From: Flavobacteriia bacterium
GTDB lineage: Bacteria; Bacteroidota; Bacteroidia; Flavobacteriales_D; Crocinitomicaceae
Direction: 5' to 3'
Assembly (NCBI GenBank): GCA_016183815.1
Contig: JACPDW010000010.1
Location: 186,001 to 250,000, forward strand
DNA length: 64,000 bases
Below are positions 6,994-52,987 of this stretch, one piece after another. A model generated the notes under the pieces. That model searched no databases. It was given only the letters and a program-made list of their open reading frames with translations, and was not told the DNA's origin. The first letter of the stretch is position 1; each line of letters opens with the position of its first letter. The position numbers and the translations under genes are program-made.

Positions 6994-7040
6994 AGCATTT
7001 TCAAATTTTTGTTGATTGAAATCATTATTTCTTGCCTTTT

Positions 7041-43762: not shown

Positions 43763-44407
43763 TCAAATTCCTGCTTCTTTCTGAAGTTGAGGTAAATTTA
43801 AAATATGAATGTTTTTTCCAATGTTTTCAATCAACTTTTCTTTATTAAATTCTGCCAAAGTTCTGATTAATGTTTCATAACGTGTACCTGCCATACTGGC
43901 TAAATCTTTTCTAGACAAAGTGTAATTTAAAGCGGAGGAATTTTCATCCCAACCAAATGTTTCTAGTGTTTTTATTAAAACCCACGCAATTTTGTTTCTG
44001 ATTGGTAATTGATTGGCTAGATGTTCTGATTCTCTTAATTCATTGGCAAAAAAATCAAGCATAAAGACAGCAAAATTTGGATTTGAAACAACTAAATCTG
44101 TATAAATTTGTAGTGGCAAAAACAATACTTCAACATCAGACAAAGCATTCGCAGTTACTGTATAAGTCCAATTTCCACCAAATCCTCGATGCCCAACAAA
44201 ATCGTCTTTTTTAGCTAAACGTATTATACGTTCTTCGTTGTCATTGGTTTTTTTTGTAATTTTGACAAACCCTGAGGTGATAATAAATATTCCTTCCGTT
44301 TTTTGACCAACAGAAAATATGATGCAATCCTTTTTAAATTGTAATCTTTTGCTGTAAAATTCAGCATAACTACACCATGAAGGAGAACAATAATTTGACA
44401 ATAACAT
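43763..44407 (-). CDS. Crp/Fnr family transcription regulator
   Basis: A 214-residue regulator with an N-terminal cyclic-nucleotide-binding-type barrel (IIFSVGQKTEGIFIITSGFV, KITKKTNDNEERIIRLAKKD) and a C-terminal HTH: LSRKDLASMAGTRYETLIRT then LAEFNKEKLIENIG. In the recognition helix Glu and Arg occupy the positions that contact the TGA half-site in FNR and CRP, agreeing with the ATGAT-N4-ATCAT boxes nearby. The N-terminus has Cys7, Cys12 and Cys28, but the spacing is not that of E. coli FNR, so an iron-sulphur cluster is not assured. It is the last gene behind hemerythrin and moaA. Confidence 0.85.
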   Translation of the reverse strand: MLLSNYCSPSWCSYAEFYSKRLQFKKDCIIFSVGQKTEGIFIITSGFVKITKKTNDNEERIIRLAKKDDFVGHRGFGGNWTYTVTANALSDVEVLFLPLQIYTDLVVSNPNFAVFMLDFFANELRESEHLANQLPIRNKIAWVLIKTLETFGWDENSSALNYTLSRKDLASMAGTRYETLIRTLAEFNKEKLIENIGKNIHILNLPQLQKEAGI

Positions 44408-44468: not shown

Positions 44469-45470
44469 TTAACCACCTATTGTAACCATCGATCGATTTT
44501 TATACTCTTTGGATATTAAATTATTTTCATCAAAAACATTAGCTCTTTGTTTTTTCTTATTTTGAATATTTTGAATTATTAAAGAATTAATATCCATTCC
44601 TTTTCTTAATGAAGATAGTAAATCCGTTTCTTCACCTGAAAAAAGACAATTTTTTAATTTTCCATCTGCTGTTAGACGAATTCTATTACAAGTATCGCAA
44701 AACGGATTTGTGATTGAACTGATTATTCCAAAATCTCCTTTAGAGCCAACGATTTTAAAATTTTTGCTCGTTTCGTTTGCTATAATTTCAAGAGGAACTA
44801 CATTTTCTTTTCCAAAAAATTGACTTGTTTTGTCTATAATTTCTTTAAAACTAATTTGTTTTGAAAAATCCCATTTATTTCCGTCAAAAGGCATGAACTC
44901 AATAAATCGAATTTTAACCTTTTCGTTTTGAGTCCATTGTATAAAATCAATAATTTCGTCGTCGTTAATACCTTTTATTAAAACTACATTCACTTTTAAA
45001 TCAAAATTTTCTTTGATTAATAAACGTATATTTTCCATTATTTTTTGAAAATACGTTCGTCTAGATATGCGATTAAATTTTTCTTCGTTTAAAGAGTCAA
45101 GACTAATGTTTAATTTTTTTATTCCCAGCCGTTTAAAATCTTCAATGTATTGATCAATTAATACTCCATTGCTTGTAATTGCAATTTCGATTGGCATTGT
45201 TGCTAAACCTTCAATTATGGAAAGAAAATCTTTTTTCAGCAAGGGTTCACCTCCAGTTAATCTGATTTTTTTCACTCCGAATTGTACAAAAGTTTTTGCA
45301 ATATACAACAATTCTTCTGTACTCATAAAATGTGTTTTATCTCTTAGTGCGATACCTTCTTCTGGCATACAATAAAAACATCTAAGATTACATCTTTCAG
45401 TTAATGATATTCTTAGATAGTCGTGTTTACGCCCAAAACCATCGAGTAAAACGGAATTTTTATTGTCCAT
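44469..45470 (-). CDS. moaA: GTP 3',8-cyclase MoaA (molybdenum cofactor synthesis)
   Basis: A 333-residue radical SAM enzyme. The N-terminal cluster motif is RCNLRCFYCMPEEG, the C-terminal [4Fe-4S] site is NPFCDTCNRIRLTADGKLKN with a further Cys, and the protein ends in Gly-Gly (MVTIGG), as MoaA should. TGGEPLL and SNGVLI are further signatures. It makes the first intermediate of molybdopterin, needed by nitrate reductase and other molybdoenzymes. No other moa genes are close. It overlaps the hemerythrin gene by 11 bp and sits in an operon with the Crp/Fnr regulator, consistent with anaerobic nitrate respiration. Confidence 0.96.
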   Translation of the reverse strand: MDNKNSVLLDGFGRKHDYLRISLTERCNLRCFYCMPEEGIALRDKTHFMSTEELLYIAKTFVQFGVKKIRLTGGEPLLKKDFLSIIEGLATMPIEIAITSNGVLIDQYIEDFKRLGIKKLNISLDSLNEEKFNRISRRTYFQKIMENIRLLIKENFDLKVNVVLIKGINDDEIIDFIQWTQNEKVKIRFIEFMPFDGNKWDFSKQISFKEIIDKTSQFFGKENVVPLEIIANETSKNFKIVGSKGDFGIISSITNPFCDTCNRIRLTADGKLKNCLFSGEETDLLSSLRKGMDINSLIIQNIQNKKKQRANVFDENNLISKEYKNRSMVTIGG

Positions 45471-46173
45471 GTATATAAAGAAAATCTTCTTTTGTTAATA
45501 ATTTTTGAGAAAGTGGAAATAAAGTTTCATCTTCTCTGAAAATATGTAAACGAATTAATTCAACTAATTCTCTAGCTGTATTGTAAGCTAAATCAAAAGT
45601 AAGCATTTGTGATTCTGTGTCTCTCAATCTTGTAGCTAAACCAAACAAATTGAAAGAAAGAGCTCCTAATTGTATAAATTTAACGTGGTCATCTTCCATA
45701 AGATCAATAGCCGTTTGTGGATTATCACCTTCGCCGTGTTCACCAGATTCAATAAAACGTGTATGTAATATTCTAAAGTAATCTCTTTCTTCTTTTCTGT
45801 TATGAGGTAAAATATGCTCGTCAAAATAAACGTAAAACAAATTCATTTCGTCAGCTATTTCTCTTGTAAATGAATAATTACTTTCTCTGAACTTAGATAG
45901 ACACTCATCAAAAATTTTAACTTTTTCTTTGACTTCCTTGTGTTCATTTACTAATTCTTGAATAAATGGATGGAGTGTTTCATAATCTAATCCCACCGTT
46001 TTACTGCTATCATAAGCATCAGGAGGATCCATAGCTGAAAACTCTTCGTCACCTTCTTCTTTTTCTGCGTTTCTTAAAATTGGATCATTTTCTTTTATCT
46101 TTTTCTTGAATGTTTTTTCATCAATCTCCTTAGAATCAAAACGTTTACCAGTTGATTTATCTATAATTTTCAT
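45460..46173 (-). CDS. Hemerythrin-like HHE domain protein
   Basis: A 237-residue soluble protein. An acidic, polar N-terminal 75 residues precede a four-helix HHE domain: NEHKEVKEKV, YFDEHILPHNRKEERDY, DLMEDDHVKFIQLG and LHIFREDETLFPLSQ. The His and Glu residues fit a di-iron site. The DPPDAYDSS part and the HILPHNRKEE order recall Bacteroidota proteins that sit with nitrate/nitric oxide genes; repair of damaged iron-sulphur clusters (as YtfE/RIC) or NO sensing are reasonable suggestions. It heads the hemerythrin-moaA-crp operon, and an FNR-like box lies 54 bp upstream. Confidence 0.85.
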   Translation of the reverse strand: MKIIDKSTGKRFDSKEIDEKTFKKKIKENDPILRNAEKEEGDEEFSAMDPPDAYDSSKTVGLDYETLHPFIQELVNEHKEVKEKVKIFDECLSKFRESNYSFTREIADEMNLFYVYFDEHILPHNRKEERDYFRILHTRFIESGEHGEGDNPQTAIDLMEDDHVKFIQLGALSFNLFGLATRLRDTESQMLTFDLAYNTARELVELIRLHIFREDETLFPLSQKLLTKEDFLYIHGQ

Positions 46174-46226
46174 TTGAAAAGCGTTATATTTTTTTGTAAA
46201 TATCGGTAGCTTTGCATATTCAAAAC

Positions 46227-46240
46227 ATGATATAAATCAT
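46227..46240. promoter_or_regulatory. FNR-like operator ATGAT-N4-ATCAT
   Basis: ATGAT, ATAA and ATCAT form a perfect inverted repeat, with the same half-sites as at 52911-52924. It precedes the hemerythrin operon by 54 bp. The core TGAT-N4-ATCA is the FNR/CRP-type site. Confidence 0.6.
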
Positions 46241-46282
46241 ATATTTAGATGAAAAATTGATAATTTACACAATTTCAAATAG

Positions 46283-47293
46283 TTATGGTTTTGAAAATTG
46301 AGGATTATTCAAAAAAGAAGTATCACTTAAGGTTTTTAAAAAAGCAATTAAATCATTTTTATCTTGAGTGGACAAGCCCAATCCAAATTCTTTTCCTGGT
46401 TTAGTCATAATTGGATCAACATACGGTGAAATTTTAACTCCATTATTATAAAACTCAATCACTTGTTCTAAAGTCAAATACCTTCCATCGTGCATATAGG
46501 GTGGAGTGAATTCAATATTTCTTAAAGTTGGAGTTTTAAATTTGCCAATATCAGCTGAGTTGTTTGTAAATAAATAACGACCTGAATTGAGTTCATTAAA
46601 ATTATCATCTAATCCCGTATTATGATAGGAATTATCTGTAAAAAGTCCTAAAGTATGGCAATGAAAACAGTCACCTCGTTCAGTAAAAAAAATATCTAAA
46701 CCATTTAATTCTTGTGGAGTGAGTTGAAGTTCTCCTTTTTTATAACGATCATATTTTGAATTACTTGAAATCATACTTCTTGTAAATTGTGCCAAAGCAA
46801 AAGCTACTTGATTGACACTAATTTGTTTACTCCCAAACACCTTTTCAAAAAGTGAAGGATACTCAGAATGGTTTTGAAGTTTTGAAACATCCGTGCCAAA
46901 AAAAGTGCCTACTTCAAAAATCATCGCATCTTCCAAAGTTGAGCCAACACTTCCGTCCCACAAAAAGGAACTGTGCCATGCTAAGTTGATGTGAGCCAAA
47001 CTATTAACACTTTGTTTTGAAAATGATTCTGTTTGATTATGACAAGAACTACAACTCCTACCATCGTTTGAAAGTAAAGTGTCGTAATATAATTTTCTTC
47101 CCAAAGCAACTCCTTCTTTAGATAATCTATTAGAAGTATTTAGAGTCATTTCAGGAAAATAGTTAGGATAAGTTAGTTGAATATATTCTAAAGGTTCTTT
47201 ATAAGGGGTAATTTCTTCCTGTTTTTTTTTACAAGAAAAAATTAAAAGGATAAACAGAAATAAGAATAAATTAATTTTTGAAATAAAATACAT
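46283..47293 (-). CDS. Dihaem MauG/CcpA-family protein, MbnH-like
   Basis: A 336-residue lipoprotein-type exported dihaem enzyme. MYFISKINLFLFLFILLIFS with Cys21 is a lipobox. Haem sites are RSCSSCHNQTES and GDCFHCHTLGLF; DIGKFKTPTLRNIEFTPPYM, HDGRYLTLEQVIEFYN and a late FLKTLSD match the cytochrome c peroxidase/MauG group. Next to an MbnP-like gene, the closest reading is MbnH, which oxidises a Trp of its MbnP partner to kynurenine. A general H2O2 peroxidase is the alternative. An earlier ATG at 47317 is possible; the chosen start overlaps MbnP by 23 bp. Confidence 0.82.
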   Translation of the reverse strand: MYFISKINLFLFLFILLIFSCKKKQEEITPYKEPLEYIQLTYPNYFPEMTLNTSNRLSKEGVALGRKLYYDTLLSNDGRSCSSCHNQTESFSKQSVNSLAHINLAWHSSFLWDGSVGSTLEDAMIFEVGTFFGTDVSKLQNHSEYPSLFEKVFGSKQISVNQVAFALAQFTRSMISSNSKYDRYKKGELQLTPQELNGLDIFFTERGDCFHCHTLGLFTDNSYHNTGLDDNFNELNSGRYLFTNNSADIGKFKTPTLRNIEFTPPYMHDGRYLTLEQVIEFYNNGVKISPYVDPIMTKPGKEFGLGLSTQDKNDLIAFLKTLSDTSFLNNPQFSKP

Positions 47294-47987
47294 CTTGCCC
47301 ATTCTTTTTAAGTACATTCATTACCGAATCATTATTCATTGAATACGCTTCATGAATTGTTAAATCATAAGTTAGAGGATTTTTAAACCATTCTAAGATA
47401 TCATGAACAATTTCAATTTTATCTGAAGTATTTTTGATTTCCTTATTTAATGGTAATTCATAATGAATTCTCATTTTAGATTTTCCTAGGTGAAAAGCAT
47501 AACCGTAATATGAGCCGTTTAACAAATATCTTCCTTCTAATTTCATAAAATGATAACCACCACCCATTGGTTCAGGCCAAATCATGTTCTGATTTTCTAT
47601 GGTATTATCCAAATAAGCAAACACATTACGAGCGGAATCAATACCTAAATCAAAATGAAGAGAAGTGTATTTTCCTAGAGGAATATCGTTGAGTTCAAAA
47701 AATAAAGTTTCTGATTTTTTTAAATCTAAATAATGTATTTGTGAATCAACTATTGAGTCAGAAAATTCGTTTGAAAACAAAGTAATATTACTTATATAAT
47801 AATGTAAATCGGTTAAAGTGAACATATTGCCCGCTTCATTCGTGTAGGTATGAGGGTCAAAATTTATATAATCAGAACCAAGCTGATGGGTGAAATTAAT
47901 TTTAACTTTTGCAACTAGTTTTTGTTCGCTTTTTGAACAAGACAAAACAATCAGCAATAAATTCAAAACTACAAAAACTTCCTTCAT
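47271..47987 (-). CDS. MbnP family protein (lipoprotein)
   Basis: A 238-residue lipoprotein (MKEVFVVLNLLLIVLSC, lipobox Cys17). The mature part has the MbnP pattern: INFTHQLGSDYINFD, TLTDLHYYISNITLFS, DIPLGKYTSLHFDLGID and MIWPEPMGGGYHFMKLEGRY. MbnP proteins bind copper and are modified on a Trp by MbnH, encoded here just downstream. The Trp of MIWPEP is a candidate, though I cannot align it to the modified residue. Copper acquisition for nitrite or nitrous oxide reduction is a possible link with the neighbouring nitrate genes. Confidence 0.78.
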   Translation of the reverse strand: MKEVFVVLNLLLIVLSCSKSEQKLVAKVKINFTHQLGSDYINFDPHTYTNEAGNMFTLTDLHYYISNITLFSNEFSDSIVDSQIHYLDLKKSETLFFELNDIPLGKYTSLHFDLGIDSARNVFAYLDNTIENQNMIWPEPMGGGYHFMKLEGRYLLNGSYYGYAFHLGKSKMRIHYELPLNKEIKNTSDKIEIVHDILEWFKNPLTYDLTIHEAYSMNNDSVMNVLKKNGQDVFYFKN

Positions 47988-48031
47988 TTTATCTAAATTC
48001 GGAAGTATAAAGTTAGTATTTTTTTTTTAAA

Positions 48032-48075
48032 TCTGAGTTCGATTTTACAAGAATATTTGAAAAATCGAACTCAGA
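48032..48075. terminator. Very strong hairpin (15-bp perfect stem)
   Basis: TCTGAGTTCGATTTT (48032-48046) and AAAATCGAACTCAGA (48061-48075) are perfect complements with a 14-base loop. It stands between the porin end and the MbnP start. Read on the minus strand there is no T run after the stem, so transcription end or mRNA 3'-end protection are both possible. Confidence 0.6.
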
Positions 48076-48092
48076 GTAATAATTTAAATGCT

Positions 48093-49406
48093 TTACATTT
48101 TTAATCCAGAACGAGGAAATAACATTTTAGTGTTTGGTCTGATAATCAACATCAAGTATGCCCAATTACTATTATTAGAAACACTTCCTCCTTTAAGAGC
48201 TTTCATCGTTCCTGTTCCAAACATTTGTGAATAACCACCTTGAATTGAAACATTATCAGTGTATTTATACAAAACAGTAAAATCAAATTCAGAACCTAAA
48301 TGAGAATCTCTTGCTTTATATTCCAATGGAAATTTCATATCTCTTACTGGAGCCGCAGCATTGAAATAATGACTATTTAAAGAAAGAACCCAATTTTTCA
48401 TTTTATAACTTATTCTTAGATAAGCATCAAGTAACCCAACAGAATTGGTGTGATTTCCAACATAAAAATAGTCCATATATCCATTAAATCTATGGTTTGT
48501 TCCATAAAACGGATTAAAAGAATTATTTACTTTGTTAGCTGTATCAATTTGACTTGTACCTGAAAGCATTTCAGCACCTAAAGTAAACAACCATGATTTT
48601 GTCGGTTTATACCCTATTTCGGCACAGAAATTGAAAGCACTTAAATCGCTTGTTTTGATATTTGTTACACCATTTTTACCCATTTGATAATAAAAATATC
48701 CTAAAAAATTAAATTTATCATTAGAATATTCCCCCCTTAACCCTAAAGTTTGAGTATAAATAGTCGTAGAGTCCGTAATTTTTGTTACCGTATCTAATTT
48801 ATTGTAAGACATTCCGTTATTTAAAAACAAAAATGAATAATTACCTTTTCCAAGCACTTTATTCACCCATAAATATTGGAATGTTTTATAATTAGCTACA
48901 GAATATTGTATAAATTTACTTTTGTCTTCATTCTGATTATAAGCAAAACCAGCATCCACCGACCAAGTACTGTCTTTATACCTTACTAGAGCAGCATCAT
49001 GTCTTCTAGCTTGCATTGCCCAATCCAAAGAACCAAATATTCTTTCATCGTCGTAAGCAATAGTTTGACGACCTATTTTTGCAGAAAATCTTTTGTTAAA
49101 AAACAACTCTGCATTGGCTTCAAAAACAGACAACAATCCTTTCGTGTCAATAGCTGAATTCGCTACACTACCCCATGTTCTTATGTCTTGAACAGATAAA
49201 TTTAATTTATAAAGACTATGTTTATACGTCGCCCCTAATCTTGCTCTTTGAGAGATAAAAGCACCTGGTTTAAAATTTTGAGGTGCTAACGATTGGAAAC
49301 CATGACGAATTTCACCTCTCGACATATACTGCCCATTTATTTCGAACTGAGAAAATAAGTTATTTAATGTAAATAAACTTAAAATTAAAATTACTTTTGT
49401 TTTCAT
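48093..49406 (-). CDS. Outer-membrane porin, alginate-export type
   Basis: A 437-residue protein with a signal peptide (MKTKVILILSLFTLNNLFSQ) and a barrel typical of the alginate-export/AlgE-like group: INGQYMSRGEIRHGFQSLAP, FISQRARLGATYKHSLYKLN, VQDIRTWG, AELFFNKRFSAKIGRQTIAY and DWAMQARRHDAALVRY. The strands end with NWAYLMLIIRPNTKMLF. In Bacteroidota such porins are often beside nitrate or nitrite genes, probably letting small anions across the outer membrane. It follows the narK pair, after a terminator. Confidence 0.8.
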   Translation of the reverse strand: MKTKVILILSLFTLNNLFSQFEINGQYMSRGEIRHGFQSLAPQNFKPGAFISQRARLGATYKHSLYKLNLSVQDIRTWGSVANSAIDTKGLLSVFEANAELFFNKRFSAKIGRQTIAYDDERIFGSLDWAMQARRHDAALVRYKDSTWSVDAGFAYNQNEDKSKFIQYSVANYKTFQYLWVNKVLGKGNYSFLFLNNGMSYNKLDTVTKITDSTTIYTQTLGLRGEYSNDKFNFLGYFYYQMGKNGVTNIKTSDLSAFNFCAEIGYKPTKSWLFTLGAEMLSGTSQIDTANKVNNSFNPFYGTNHRFNGYMDYFYVGNHTNSVGLLDAYLRISYKMKNWVLSLNSHYFNAAAPVRDMKFPLEYKARDSHLGSEFDFTVLYKYTDNVSIQGGYSQMFGTGTMKALKGGSVSNNSNWAYLMLIIRPNTKMLFPRSGLKM

Positions 49407-49442
49407 TATTTTGTATTTAATTTGTTAACTATTTTTTTAAAA

Positions 49443-49499
49443 GAAGGAACTCAAGCCGTACCTAAAACTTAAAATCAAAAAAATGGAAAGAGTTCCTTC
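49443..49499 (-). terminator. Terminator of the narK operon
   Basis: GAAGGAACTC (49443-49452) and GAGTTCCTTC (49490-49499) form a perfect 10-bp stem with a 37-base loop. On the minus strand it follows the narK stop by a few bases and ends in TTTT. Confidence 0.65.
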
Positions 49500-49505
49500 A
49501 AATTT

Positions 49506-51104
49506 TTAGCTAGGTCTAACACAACCTTTTCTATGATAAAAATTCCAATTTATTAAAGTTGCAATCACTGCAAAAATACATAAGCCAATAAAAAACGCAT
49601 TTGGTGTACCAGAAGCATTAATTGAACTCATTATTAATATAGAGAACAAAAATGGTCCAAAAGCAGCCACAGCAGCAGTCCACCCAATAACACCAGCAGC
49701 TTGTCTTGGATTATGTTGGAAAATAATTGGATATTGACGGAAAGTTGCTGCGTTTCCAATACCTGTAAAGAAAAACAATCCAAGCATTACGGTAACGAAC
49801 ATTGGAAACTGATCTAAACTCGTAGGAGCAACTAAACCTAAACTTACCAATAAAATTGTACCAATTATTAAACCTAATCCAGAAATAGTTGTTAAAATAC
49901 CACCACCCGTTTTATCTGCAACAAATCCAAACAATACACGACTTGCCGAGCCAATAAGTGGGCCATAAAAAGCATAGGTTAATGGGTCTGGAGCATTTGG
50001 AAAACTACCATAAACAGATTTAATCAACATTGGAAATGCAGCTGCAAGTCCAGAAAAACCACCAAAAGTCATGATATAAGTAATAGTACAATACCATGTA
50101 TGTTTATCACTGAAGATGTCTAATTGTTCTTTAATAGAAGCTTTTACAGGAACACTTCTTAGTTTAATCCAGCTTAACACTCCAAATATTAGAAGTAAAG
50201 GAATATACCAAAAAGCAGCCGTTTGTAAATATATATTTGAATTTTTAACTCCATTTTCTGTTTCTGAAAACAGTTTTAAAGTACTTTCAGCTTTTTTAGG
50301 ATGAATATTTGTAAAAGATTTTGCTTTAACAGCAACTGGCAATTTCTCAAAAAACACAATTGGATCTGAAGGCACATTATCAGCAAAAACTTTTTTTACT
50401 ACTTTTTTGTCAAGTTTTTCAGCGATTGTTTTTTGGATTTCTGGTTCAATAGTTTTATAAACCTCCATCACTTTTTCCTCGCCTAATTTTGTAAACATCG
50501 TTTCCACTTGTTTTGGTTCAATTTTCGTGAAAACGGCTGAAGCACCATAAATTCCCACACCAATCATAATAGGAGTTAAAAACTGAACTAAACTTACTCC
50601 AAAATTTCCAATACCAGCTTGAATTCCTAAGGCAGTACCTTTAAGTTTTTTTGGAAAAAACAAGTTTGTACTTGGCATATAAGAGGAGAAATCACCTCCA
50701 CCAAAGCCAGTTAAAAAAGCCAAGACCATAAATACCCAGAATGGTGTTGTCGTGTCCATTACAGCAAAACCTACTCCAATACATGGAATGAGTTTTAAAA
50801 ATGTTGAAATGGAAATTACATGTCTAGTTCCATAAATAGGAATGATAAAAGAATGGATAATTCTCAAACTACCTCCTGCTAAACCAGGCATCGCAGCTAA
50901 CCAAAACAATTGGTCTTGAGTAAATTTAAATCCTATTCCATTTAGCTTCACCACTAAGGCACTCATAATAAACCAAGTAGCAAAGGAAAAAGTCAGTGCA
51001 CCTGTTGTAATCCATAAGGTTTTCCAAGCCATTTGCTTTCCACCTTCGTTCTCCCAAAAATGCTCATTTTCAGGATCCCATGTTGTTAACCACGTTTTTG
51101 ACAT
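49506..51104 (-). CDS. narK: NarK-type nitrate/nitrite transporter with a cytoplasmic insertion
   Basis: A 532-residue MFS transporter. The nitrate signature regions are FFPKKLKGTALGIQAGIGNF with GVSLVQFLTP in helix 5 and GPLIGSASRVLFGFVADKTG, GLFFFTGIGNAATFRQYPII in the second half. Between helices 6 and 7 there are about 95 extra charged residues (around 200-290, with IEPKQVETMFTKLGEEK and AEKLDKKVVKKVF), more than in usual NarK proteins. It should exchange nitrate for nitrite or take up nitrate with protons. It lies 28 bp after the first transporter gene. Confidence 0.88.
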   Translation of the reverse strand: MSKTWLTTWDPENEHFWENEGGKQMAWKTLWITTGALTFSFATWFIMSALVVKLNGIGFKFTQDQLFWLAAMPGLAGGSLRIIHSFIIPIYGTRHVISISTFLKLIPCIGVGFAVMDTTTPFWVFMVLAFLTGFGGGDFSSYMPSTNLFFPKKLKGTALGIQAGIGNFGVSLVQFLTPIMIGVGIYGASAVFTKIEPKQVETMFTKLGEEKVMEVYKTIEPEIQKTIAEKLDKKVVKKVFADNVPSDPIVFFEKLPVAVKAKSFTNIHPKKAESTLKLFSETENGVKNSNIYLQTAAFWYIPLLLIFGVLSWIKLRSVPVKASIKEQLDIFSDKHTWYCTITYIMTFGGFSGLAAAFPMLIKSVYGSFPNAPDPLTYAFYGPLIGSASRVLFGFVADKTGGGILTTISGLGLIIGTILLVSLGLVAPTSLDQFPMFVTVMLGLFFFTGIGNAATFRQYPIIFQHNPRQAAGVIGWTAAVAAFGPFLFSILIMSSINASGTPNAFFIGLCIFAVIATLINWNFYHRKGCVRPS

Positions 51105-51132
51105 AATTTTTAAATTTAAATGTTACAAAATA

Positions 51133-52860
51133 TTAACGAACGATTCTTAAAATGGGACACGGTGATTCTTTAAATACACTGTACGTTCTTGCACCCATTA
51201 ATAACTTACCCTTTGGAGAAGCATGGTGGCTCGCCAAAATAATCAATTCAGTATTTTTTTCTTTAGCAACTGATATTATTTCCTCTGCCACATCACCTTG
51301 ACCAAAAACAGCTTCAATGTTGTTTACTTCCATATTTTGGAGTTTTTTTGCTTCATCTATCAAAATAGTTTTTCCTTCTGCAACCCAAGATTCTCTAATT
51401 GCTTCCCATTCAGGTGAATCGGTGGCTAATAAACCTGTACTATGAAATTTAGAATTTACATATAATAATACAATTTTACTTCCCGTCTTTTTGCTTAAAT
51501 AAGCTGCGTGTTCTCTCGCTTTGTCAGCCAATTCTGAATTTCCAACAGGTAATAAAATGGTTTTGTATTCTAGTTTTCCGTCTTTACTTCTTTCAACTGC
51601 TTGTAAAGCTAAATCAGGAATATGATGTTTAATTTCAAAATCAATTTGTTCGTTTACAATACGAGCTTTACCTCCTTTTTCAATCCAAACTTTAGTCCAT
51701 TTTCTTTGAGCTAATCTCAAAACCACAAAAGCAATTACAGCTAACAATGCAAAAGATAAGAATCCATAAGTGAATGACCCAGTAGTTTGTTTTGAAATTC
51801 CCATTGCATTTGGAATAAAACTACCTCCTAATGCACCAATCTCACCAATCATACTACCTGCTACAGCTGTTGCTAGTGGCCATCTCAAAGGTACCAGTTG
51901 AAACAAAGCACCATTTCCAGCTCCTAAAGCGGCAAAAGCAAACATGAAAATTATAGTCGTAACAGTAACATTTATAGGAAAAGCTGCAGCAATGATAAGC
52001 AAAATAATAAATCCAAAAACGGCAGTTAAAGTGTTTACACCACCCCATCTATCCGCAGCCCATCCACCTGCCACACGTACAGCTGAACCCATTATGGCTG
52101 CTAACATAGTAAGTTGACCAGCTTCTACTTTTGTTACACCAAAGTTGTCGTGAAAATAAGTTGGTAAAAAGTTGGCCAAACCAATAAAACCACCAAATGT
52201 TATGATATAGATTAAATTAAATGACCACCCATCACGTTCAAATAAACAAGCTATGTGCTCTTTAAGACTTTGTTTTTCAATATCTGGTGGTTCTTTAGCG
52301 AAAATTATCATTACCACTATTGGTATTAACATGAATAATGCTGCCATACCATAAACGGCTTGCCAACCAAAATTAACTGCTAAAGGAGGTGCAAACAACA
52401 TGGCCAAAACTGTTCCACTATTTCCCGCACCTGCTATTCCCATTGCTAAACCTTTATATTTAGGTGGAAACCAACCAGATCCTAGAGATAAAGCGACTCC
52501 AAAACTTGCACCTGCAATCCCAAGTAATACTCCCATTGCCAAAACATCTGAATAAGTGTCAACCATGTAATACCCGAAAATCATCGCAAAGAAAATCAAT
52601 GACATTTCCGTAAGTGCAGCGTTTTTACGTCCAATGTATTGTGCTAATACACCTAGAGGAAAACGCATAATTGCACCTGCTAATATAGGTACGGATATCA
52701 TAAACCCTTTTTGAGCATCTGTTAATCCAAATTCTTCACTAATAAAAGGTGCCATCGCTCCATTGAGGACCCATATAGCGAAACAAAAATCAAAATATAA
52801 AAAGGACGCAAATAATGTTGGAGCGTGTCCTGCTTTTAAAAAAACCTTAAAATTTCCCAT
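51133..52860 (-). CDS. narK: NarK-type nitrate transporter fused to a universal stress domain
   Basis: A 575-residue fusion. Residues 1-420 are a 12-helix MFS with nitrate signatures: SGWFPPKYKGLAMGIAGAGN with SGTVLAMLFAPPLA, and VRVAGGWAADRWGG, GAGNGALFQLVPLRWP. From about residue 430 there is a UspA domain: YKTILLPVGNSELADKAREH, KIVLLYVNS, and the ATP-binding end LIILASHHASPKGKLLMGA followed by PCPILRIVR. It is first in a two-transporter operon with a strong FNR-like box upstream. A regulatory role for the stress domain on transport is inferred. Confidence 0.9.
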   Translation of the reverse strand: MGNFKVFLKAGHAPTLFASFLYFDFCFAIWVLNGAMAPFISEEFGLTDAQKGFMISVPILAGAIMRFPLGVLAQYIGRKNAALTEMSLIFFAMIFGYYMVDTYSDVLAMGVLLGIAGASFGVALSLGSGWFPPKYKGLAMGIAGAGNSGTVLAMLFAPPLAVNFGWQAVYGMAALFMLIPIVVMIIFAKEPPDIEKQSLKEHIACLFERDGWSFNLIYIITFGGFIGLANFLPTYFHDNFGVTKVEAGQLTMLAAIMGSAVRVAGGWAADRWGGVNTLTAVFGFIILLIIAAAFPINVTVTTIIFMFAFAALGAGNGALFQLVPLRWPLATAVAGSMIGEIGALGGSFIPNAMGISKQTTGSFTYGFLSFALLAVIAFVVLRLAQRKWTKVWIEKGGKARIVNEQIDFEIKHHIPDLALQAVERSKDGKLEYKTILLPVGNSELADKAREHAAYLSKKTGSKIVLLYVNSKFHSTGLLATDSPEWEAIRESWVAEGKTILIDEAKKLQNMEVNNIEAVFGQGDVAEEIISVAKEKNTELIILASHHASPKGKLLMGARTYSVFKESPCPILRIVR

Positions 52861-52880
52861 GACTTTTCTGTTTTATGAAA

Positions 52881-52924
52881 CAAAGCTAAGTCGGTTTGTC
52901 ATTTTAATTTATGATTCATATCAT
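52881..52924 (-). promoter_or_regulatory. narK promoter with FNR-like operator at about -40
   Basis: On the minus strand TAGCTTTG (52888-52881) is a -7 element 20 bases before the start codon. The perfect inverted repeat ATGAT-TCAT-ATCAT spans 52911-52924, centred about 40 bp upstream of the expected transcription start, the class II activator position. Confidence 0.65.
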
Positions 52925-52973
52925 ATATATAGCTATTTGTTGTCATAATATTCATTGTAAAACCTTATATAAT

Positions 52974-52987
52974 ATGATTTATATTAT
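52974..52987. promoter_or_regulatory. Second, weaker FNR-like site
   Basis: ATGAT-TTAT-ATTAT differs from the 52911 box by one base in the right half. It is centred 63 bp further upstream and may be an auxiliary site. Confidence 0.35.

Follow-up and report, generated by a model that had tools for sequence, protein, structure and literature searches.

A 64,000-nucleotide stretch of the genome of a Flavobacteriia bacterium (Crocinitomicaceae; contig JACPDW010000010.1, positions 186,001 to 250,000), here called the window, carries the palindrome ATGAT-N4-ATCAT in front of a gene for a NarK-type transporter (narK) and in front of a hemerythrin-moaA-crp operon. We consider it likely that an FNR-type activator working at the class II position, −41.5, uses this palindrome as its operator, and that the main reader of the palindrome is most likely a four-cysteine Crp/Fnr protein encoded elsewhere in the genome (C4-type below). 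This would be an FNR-type regulon with an altered outer base and a predicted mode of binding. The argument draws on the sites, their geometry, the set of genes behind them, their conservation, and the cysteines and helix residues of the candidate regulators. The original prediction, made from the window, placed perfect copies at 46227 and 52911 and a one-mismatch copy at 52974; these coordinates are correct, and the hemerythrin and narK operons each have an exact copy of the same box. It also proposed a local FNR-like regulon: the FNR-like box, the activating position and the nitrogen-oxide targets stand, but the regulon is not local, being spread over the genome and the class.

Conservation of the box at narK loci

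We used 80 narK loci from named genomes, of which 22 are Bacteroidota by title and 20 were kept after L069 and L075, which nearly duplicate L068 and L074, had been removed. Two loci are not independent, since L071 and L080 are apparently the G023 and G013 genomes discussed below. In a de novo scan of every 5-base palindrome with gaps of 0–12 over the 20 Bacteroidota loci, ATGAT-N4-ATCAT ranks first by a wide margin, with 47 intergenic copies against none in the coding DNA (304 kb), and a presence in 19 of the 20 loci. Among 390 composition-matched motifs the same palindrome scores 47, the next four (19, 9, 5 and 4) are its own shifted registers, and the mean of all others is 0.28. The classical FNR site TTGAT-N4-ATCAA occurs in these loci once in coding DNA and never between genes.

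Directly upstream of narK, the exact box is found in 10/20 Bacteroidota loci versus 0/58 others, and with at most one mismatch in 16/20 versus 1/58 (shuffled Bacteroidota loci: mean 0.85, maximum 5). In the scan of non-Bacteroidota loci, which covered 42 of the 58, no copy lies between genes and three lie in coding DNA. Because no common FNR box was found in the non-Bacteroidota narK loci either, they give no positive control. A pattern-reversed control is not fully fair because the reversed pattern holds TAG; we therefore rely on intergenic versus coding position, on spacing and on the composition-matched motifs. The spacers of the box vary between orthologous genes. The targets recur: narK, a narG cluster, hemerythrin, Ric/ScdA, moeA and an FNR-like gene. 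The box of the hemerythrin gene, specifically, is conserved at orthologous hemerythrin genes in other genomes. Two boxes upstream of narK are also found in L072, L074 and L090, with a spacing of 63 bp in the window and 62 in L072, and such pairs are frequent at narK promoters.

Promoter geometry

In flavobacteria the −7 element TAnnTTTG spans −12 to −5, according to the available passages of PMC9723704. Between the centre of the first narK box, at 52917.5, and the leading T of the element TAGCTTTG the distance is 29.5 bp, and this offset together with the span of TAnnTTTG puts the box at −41.5, in agreement with the roughly 40 bp before the expected start that had been proposed from the window. 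The distances from box to start codon are alike for the two operons, 57.5 bp for narK and 60.5 bp for hemerythrin. The same spacing recurs widely: allowing one mismatch, TAnnTTTG is found at +29.5 from the box centre in 38 of 74 box-gene pairs, against 5 for the next position and at most 8 in shuffles, so that by predicted start the box sits at the class II activator position in these 38 pairs.

The geometry can also be searched for without fixing the outer base. TGAT-N4-ATCA followed by 23 free bases and TAnnTTTG gives 77 matches in 21 genomes and none in the control, and the base after ATCA is T in 53, A in 8, C in 9 and G in 7 (hand count; p = 1.6e-9 against 0.35), a preference for ATCAT over the classical ATCAA. 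In 30 loci with 32 such matches, 12 have ATGAT/ATCAT ends. A set of 148 genomes from the phylum comprises 37 that share the class (own genome, family and order included), with 94 matches (T 57, A 8, C 11 and G 18), and 111 from other classes, with 14 matches (A 7, T 4, C 2 and G 1); the control gave 0 (hand counts). In other families of the class 23 of 25 matches are intergenic, and the exact geometry is found upstream of ccoN (three loci), cytochrome c (two), OmpW, PPDK and PEP carboxykinase. These targets are partly like the FNR targets known elsewhere.

Distribution across the genome and its relatives

The original prediction named a random distribution of the site over the genome as the outcome that would count against it, and the distribution is not random. 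The 3.24-Mb genome has 18 exact boxes, 11 of them intergenic, and 10 of these lie 30–120 bp before a start codon. The genes concerned are narK, a second narK, a cytochrome-like gene preceding narG, hemerythrin, moeA (named by eye) divergent from an FNR-like gene, a cNMP-domain gene, HSP20, and genes for a 2-hydroxyglutaryl-CoA dehydratase-like, a pectate-lyase-like and a small membrane protein. A cNMP-domain protein (L018 5082-5696), for which there was no Pfam helix-turn-helix (HTH) match in L018, has a box at its own promoter, as is also seen in L068, L070 and L150.

A search of 59 relatives with the NarK-Usp query gave some match in 22, near full-length only in G013 and G023; a third carrier, G028, has a related cluster. 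In these three carriers 26 of 54 exact boxes are intergenic and 17 proximal, and in eight genomes without narK, where 42 of 81 boxes were sampled, 7 are intergenic and 6 proximal. For the own genome and the three carriers together, the comparison is 37/72 intergenic versus 7/42 (Fisher p = 0.0003), with p = 0.01 for proximal boxes. Within the window, by contrast, 12 sites deviate from the box by no more than one base versus 5.97 ± 2.49 expected, a number attained in 1 of 100 shuffles. Of these sites, the two exact ones and the copy at 52974 are upstream of genes, the one at 7012 lies between called open reading frames, and the other 8 are within genes. Window counts alone are thus only mildly unusual and too weak to decide; it is position that stands out.

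Which protein reads the box

Five Crp/Fnr genes of the genome score above the Pfam HTH cut-off. The Crp/Fnr gene at 43763 in the window had been singled out for the Glu and Arg of its recognition helix, and both residues are there (GTRYETLIRTL). The protein lacks the FNR cysteine set, with neither the central Cys nor the N-terminal pattern, and matches solved DNR weakly (24.5 bits). The C4-type product (contig C4, 95196-95900) has CTNCEHGKSIFC, a cysteine at the central place of FNR, and the helix GTTTESAIRTL. Its CxxC..C and central Cys align with those of Aliivibrio FNR, the third N-terminal Cys being missing in a few orthologues. The recognition helix of FNR is E-x-x-S-R, with Glu209, Ser212 and Arg213; a literature search for FNR recognition residues found no paper on them. 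Compared with solved FNR, the C4-type helix has Ile at the Ser212 place and does not read E-x-x-S-R; E-x-x-I-R is found in 30/32 rows assigned to C4. The broader pattern E..[IV]R is present in three Crp/Fnr types: 43763-type (19/19), C4-type (30/32) and a third, widespread type labelled C40 (24/29). Because the pattern is common to the 43763 product and the C4-type protein, both may bind the box. Of 18 named genomes, 16 encode a C4-type protein and a 17th has a fragment; in the exception, G068, neither an exact nor a one-mismatch box stands at narK. The box upstream of the C4-type gene (the autoregulation/moeA box) is present in 4/4 carrier genomes and in several further genomes.

That the box is read by the 43763 regulator only, as a DNR-like sensor of nitric oxide (NO) or redox state, with the C4-type protein reading something else, we regard as unlikely. 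The 43763 gene does belong to the boxed hemerythrin-moaA-crp operon, its orthologues accompany many Bacteroidota narK clusters, and its helix YE..[IV]R is constant in 19/19. However, the C4-type promoters themselves carry the box. G062 is boxed, including its two C4-type genes, yet no good orthologue of 43763 was found there, the best match being its C4-type protein; in G028 the orthologue (G028:C88:30023-30649) has an in-frame stop while the boxes are intact. The boxed C4-type promoters, the co-occurrence of C4-type proteins and boxes, the pattern in G062 and the shared E..[IV]R make the C4-type protein most likely the better candidate reader and a shared box likely. The proposal of 43763 as the regulator therefore keeps its E..IR helix as support and yields to the C4-type protein on the cysteines and on G062. 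A reader of the C40 type, common across the family, would be a still less probable choice: its helix is TE..IR in 21/29, but its genes are rarely boxed, and the eight genomes without narK, several of them with C40-type only, are those with the low intergenic fraction given above. The least credible reading, which we give hardly any weight, is that of chance AT-rich palindromes near promoters. The window count is just twice the expectation and many exact boxes lie within genes, but chance is contradicted by the 47 versus 0 at narK loci, by the fixed spacing and by spacers that are unlike at orthologous genes.

Several observations weigh against an FNR-type operator read by the C4-type protein. 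At the hemerythrin promoter the −7 place reads GATATTTA, a poor match to TAnnTTTG; the TAGCTTTG at 46207-46214 was ruled out as its promoter, being on the + strand and pointing away from hemerythrin. Classical TTGAT/ATCAA ends occur in 6 of the 32 matches in the 30 loci, 7 of the 18 exact boxes of the own genome sit within genes, and relatives without narK each hold 5-17 exact boxes. The C4-type protein scores 92.6 bits, below the curated cut-off of 228 bits of the NCBI Fnr model NF008365; in the tree neither the C4 nor the C40 proteins form a single clade, and C4-type is a working label by best match. The TE..IR helix of the C40 type counts here as well. Finally, the nosZ stretch of the own genome (L218) has no box in class II geometry (box with at most 2 mismatches; box and −7 element with at most 2 in total). 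A Crp/Fnr gene beside cytochrome c and a likely nosZ, named by eye (L022 1042-1746, contig C31), has a different helix, EK..SK, and because of this another recognition code may apply to the nos genes.

Comparison with known systems

The box resembles the FNR/ANR box of Proteobacteria in its 10 defined bases, N4 spacer, TGAT/ATCA core, position at −41.5 and anaerobic-respiration targets, and the C4-type cysteines align with those of FNR. It differs in the outer base, which is A/T here and T/A in FNR, and in being paired with a Bacteroidota −7 element rather than a −10. The label FNR-like in the original prediction is thus right for core and geometry, though not for the outer base; likewise the class II position expected of an FNR regulon is found, and the TTGAT-N4-ATCAA site is not. 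The regulator departs from FNR in the Ile at the Ser212 place and in its score under the curated Fnr model. Compared with the DNR box (TTGATnnnnATCAA; available passages of PMC1274295), there are nitrogen-oxide genes and possibly a cysteine-free partner on a common box in both cases, but the outer bases differ and the match of the 43763 protein to DNR is the weak one noted above. HcpR2 of Bacteroides (GTAACnnnnGTTAC; same passages) is likewise a Crp/Fnr protein of Bacteroidota, but has another half-site, Pro (or Ser/Gln) where the Glu would be, and, in most Bacteroides, a regulon of hcp only.

In the passages available, Rodionov et al. (PMC1274295) connect two positions of the site with residues 180 and 181. 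Where residue 180 is not Arg and residue 181 is Glu, one would expect a TTGAT-like site from this code, so the preference for ATGAT needs another cause, for which the change at the Ser212 place is the obvious candidate. More tentatively, and with rather less confidence than in the operator itself, we suggest that a class-wide low-oxygen activator might read ATGAT-N4-ATCAT through Ile/Val at the Ser212 place, a third specificity position beyond R180 and E181, and that an oxygen sensor of the iron-sulphur (Fe-S) kind and a partner free of cysteines might have the box in common, acting from −41.5 at Bacteroidota sigma promoters.

Features of the window

The coordinates are collected in Table 1. 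In the second NarK, residues 190-278, mid-transporter, match Pfam MgtE_N. The nitrate cluster also encloses an MbnP and an MbnH/MauG-like di-haem enzyme (46283-47987), and elsewhere the box occurs at MbnP-like genes named by eye (L097 10704, L103 4049).

Table 1. Boxes, promoter elements and genes of the narK-hemerythrin region, in window coordinates.
Feature	Position	Strand	Remarks
narK box 1	52911..52924	none	exact ATGAT-N4-ATCAT, ATGATNNNNATCAT; centre −41.5 to predicted narK start
narK second box	52974..52987	none	one mismatch, ATGATTTATATTAT; 63 bp upstream of box 1; centre about −104.5
narK −7 element	52881..52888	-	TAGCTTTG (TAnnTTTG); predicted start near 52876
Hemerythrin-moaA-crp operon box	46227..46240	none	exact ATGAT-N4-ATCAT, ATGATNNNNATCAT; centre 60.5 bp upstream of ATG
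Second conserved palindrome	46182..46206	-	CCGATAT-N12-ATAACG; overlaps −7 region of hemerythrin gene
NarK-type transporter	51133..52860	-	fused to universal stress domain
Second NarK-family transporter	49506..51104	-	
Outer membrane protein	48093..49406	-	Alginate_exp family
MbnP-family protein	47271..47987	-	
Di-haem enzyme	46283..47317	-	CCP_MauG / MbnH kind
Hemerythrin-domain protein	45460..46173	-	weak Ric-like match
MoaA	44469..45470	-	molybdenum cofactor
Crp/Fnr regulator	43763..44407	-	helix YETLIR; without FNR cysteine set; candidate second box reader

The second palindrome, CCG[AT]TATTT[AG]C..AAACATAACGG, overlaps the −7 regions of hemerythrin promoters in the window and in L068 (14905), L070 (9686), L074 (17706), L076 (16596), L079 (14453), L085 (13234) and L090 (16622). 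It is intergenic also in L080, L092, L211 and L081. Its reader is perhaps a repressor.

Proposed mechanism and significance

For the favoured FNR-type operator, the binding and activation, the sensing of oxygen and NO, and the identity of the acting protein are predictions. An activator dimer would read ATGAT on each half-site and, at −41.5, would touch the RNA polymerase that carries the primary sigma factor of Bacteroidota (class II activation) at promoters where a −7 element is present but help would be required. The main reader would most likely be the four-cysteine C4 protein, whose own promoter is boxed, and the 43763 regulator, with the same key helix residues and without the cluster cysteines, probably reads the box under another signal, in the way that DNR and ANR of Pseudomonas use a common box. 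When oxygen falls, the activator would then induce the uptake and reduction of nitrate, proteins that repair NO damage, and the synthesis of the molybdenum cofactor; in relatives it would also induce the high-affinity cbb3 oxidase.

In the open-licence PMC literature we found neither ATGATNNNNATCAT nor the box written as ATGATN4ATCAT or ATGAT-N4-ATCAT, and, in its titles and available passages, no anaerobic-activator (FNR) site for Bacteroidota; subscription papers and RegPrecise lie outside this scope. In soil and wastewater, Bacteroidota are a major group among the bacteria that denitrify and reduce N2O. The motif and its exact promoter geometry would make the regulon predictable from sequence, and the ATGAT box offers a test of a rule of protein-DNA recognition. 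For a whole set of genes of nitrate and low-oxygen respiration, in this bacterium and in many of its relatives, the on-switch would now be predictable and testable.

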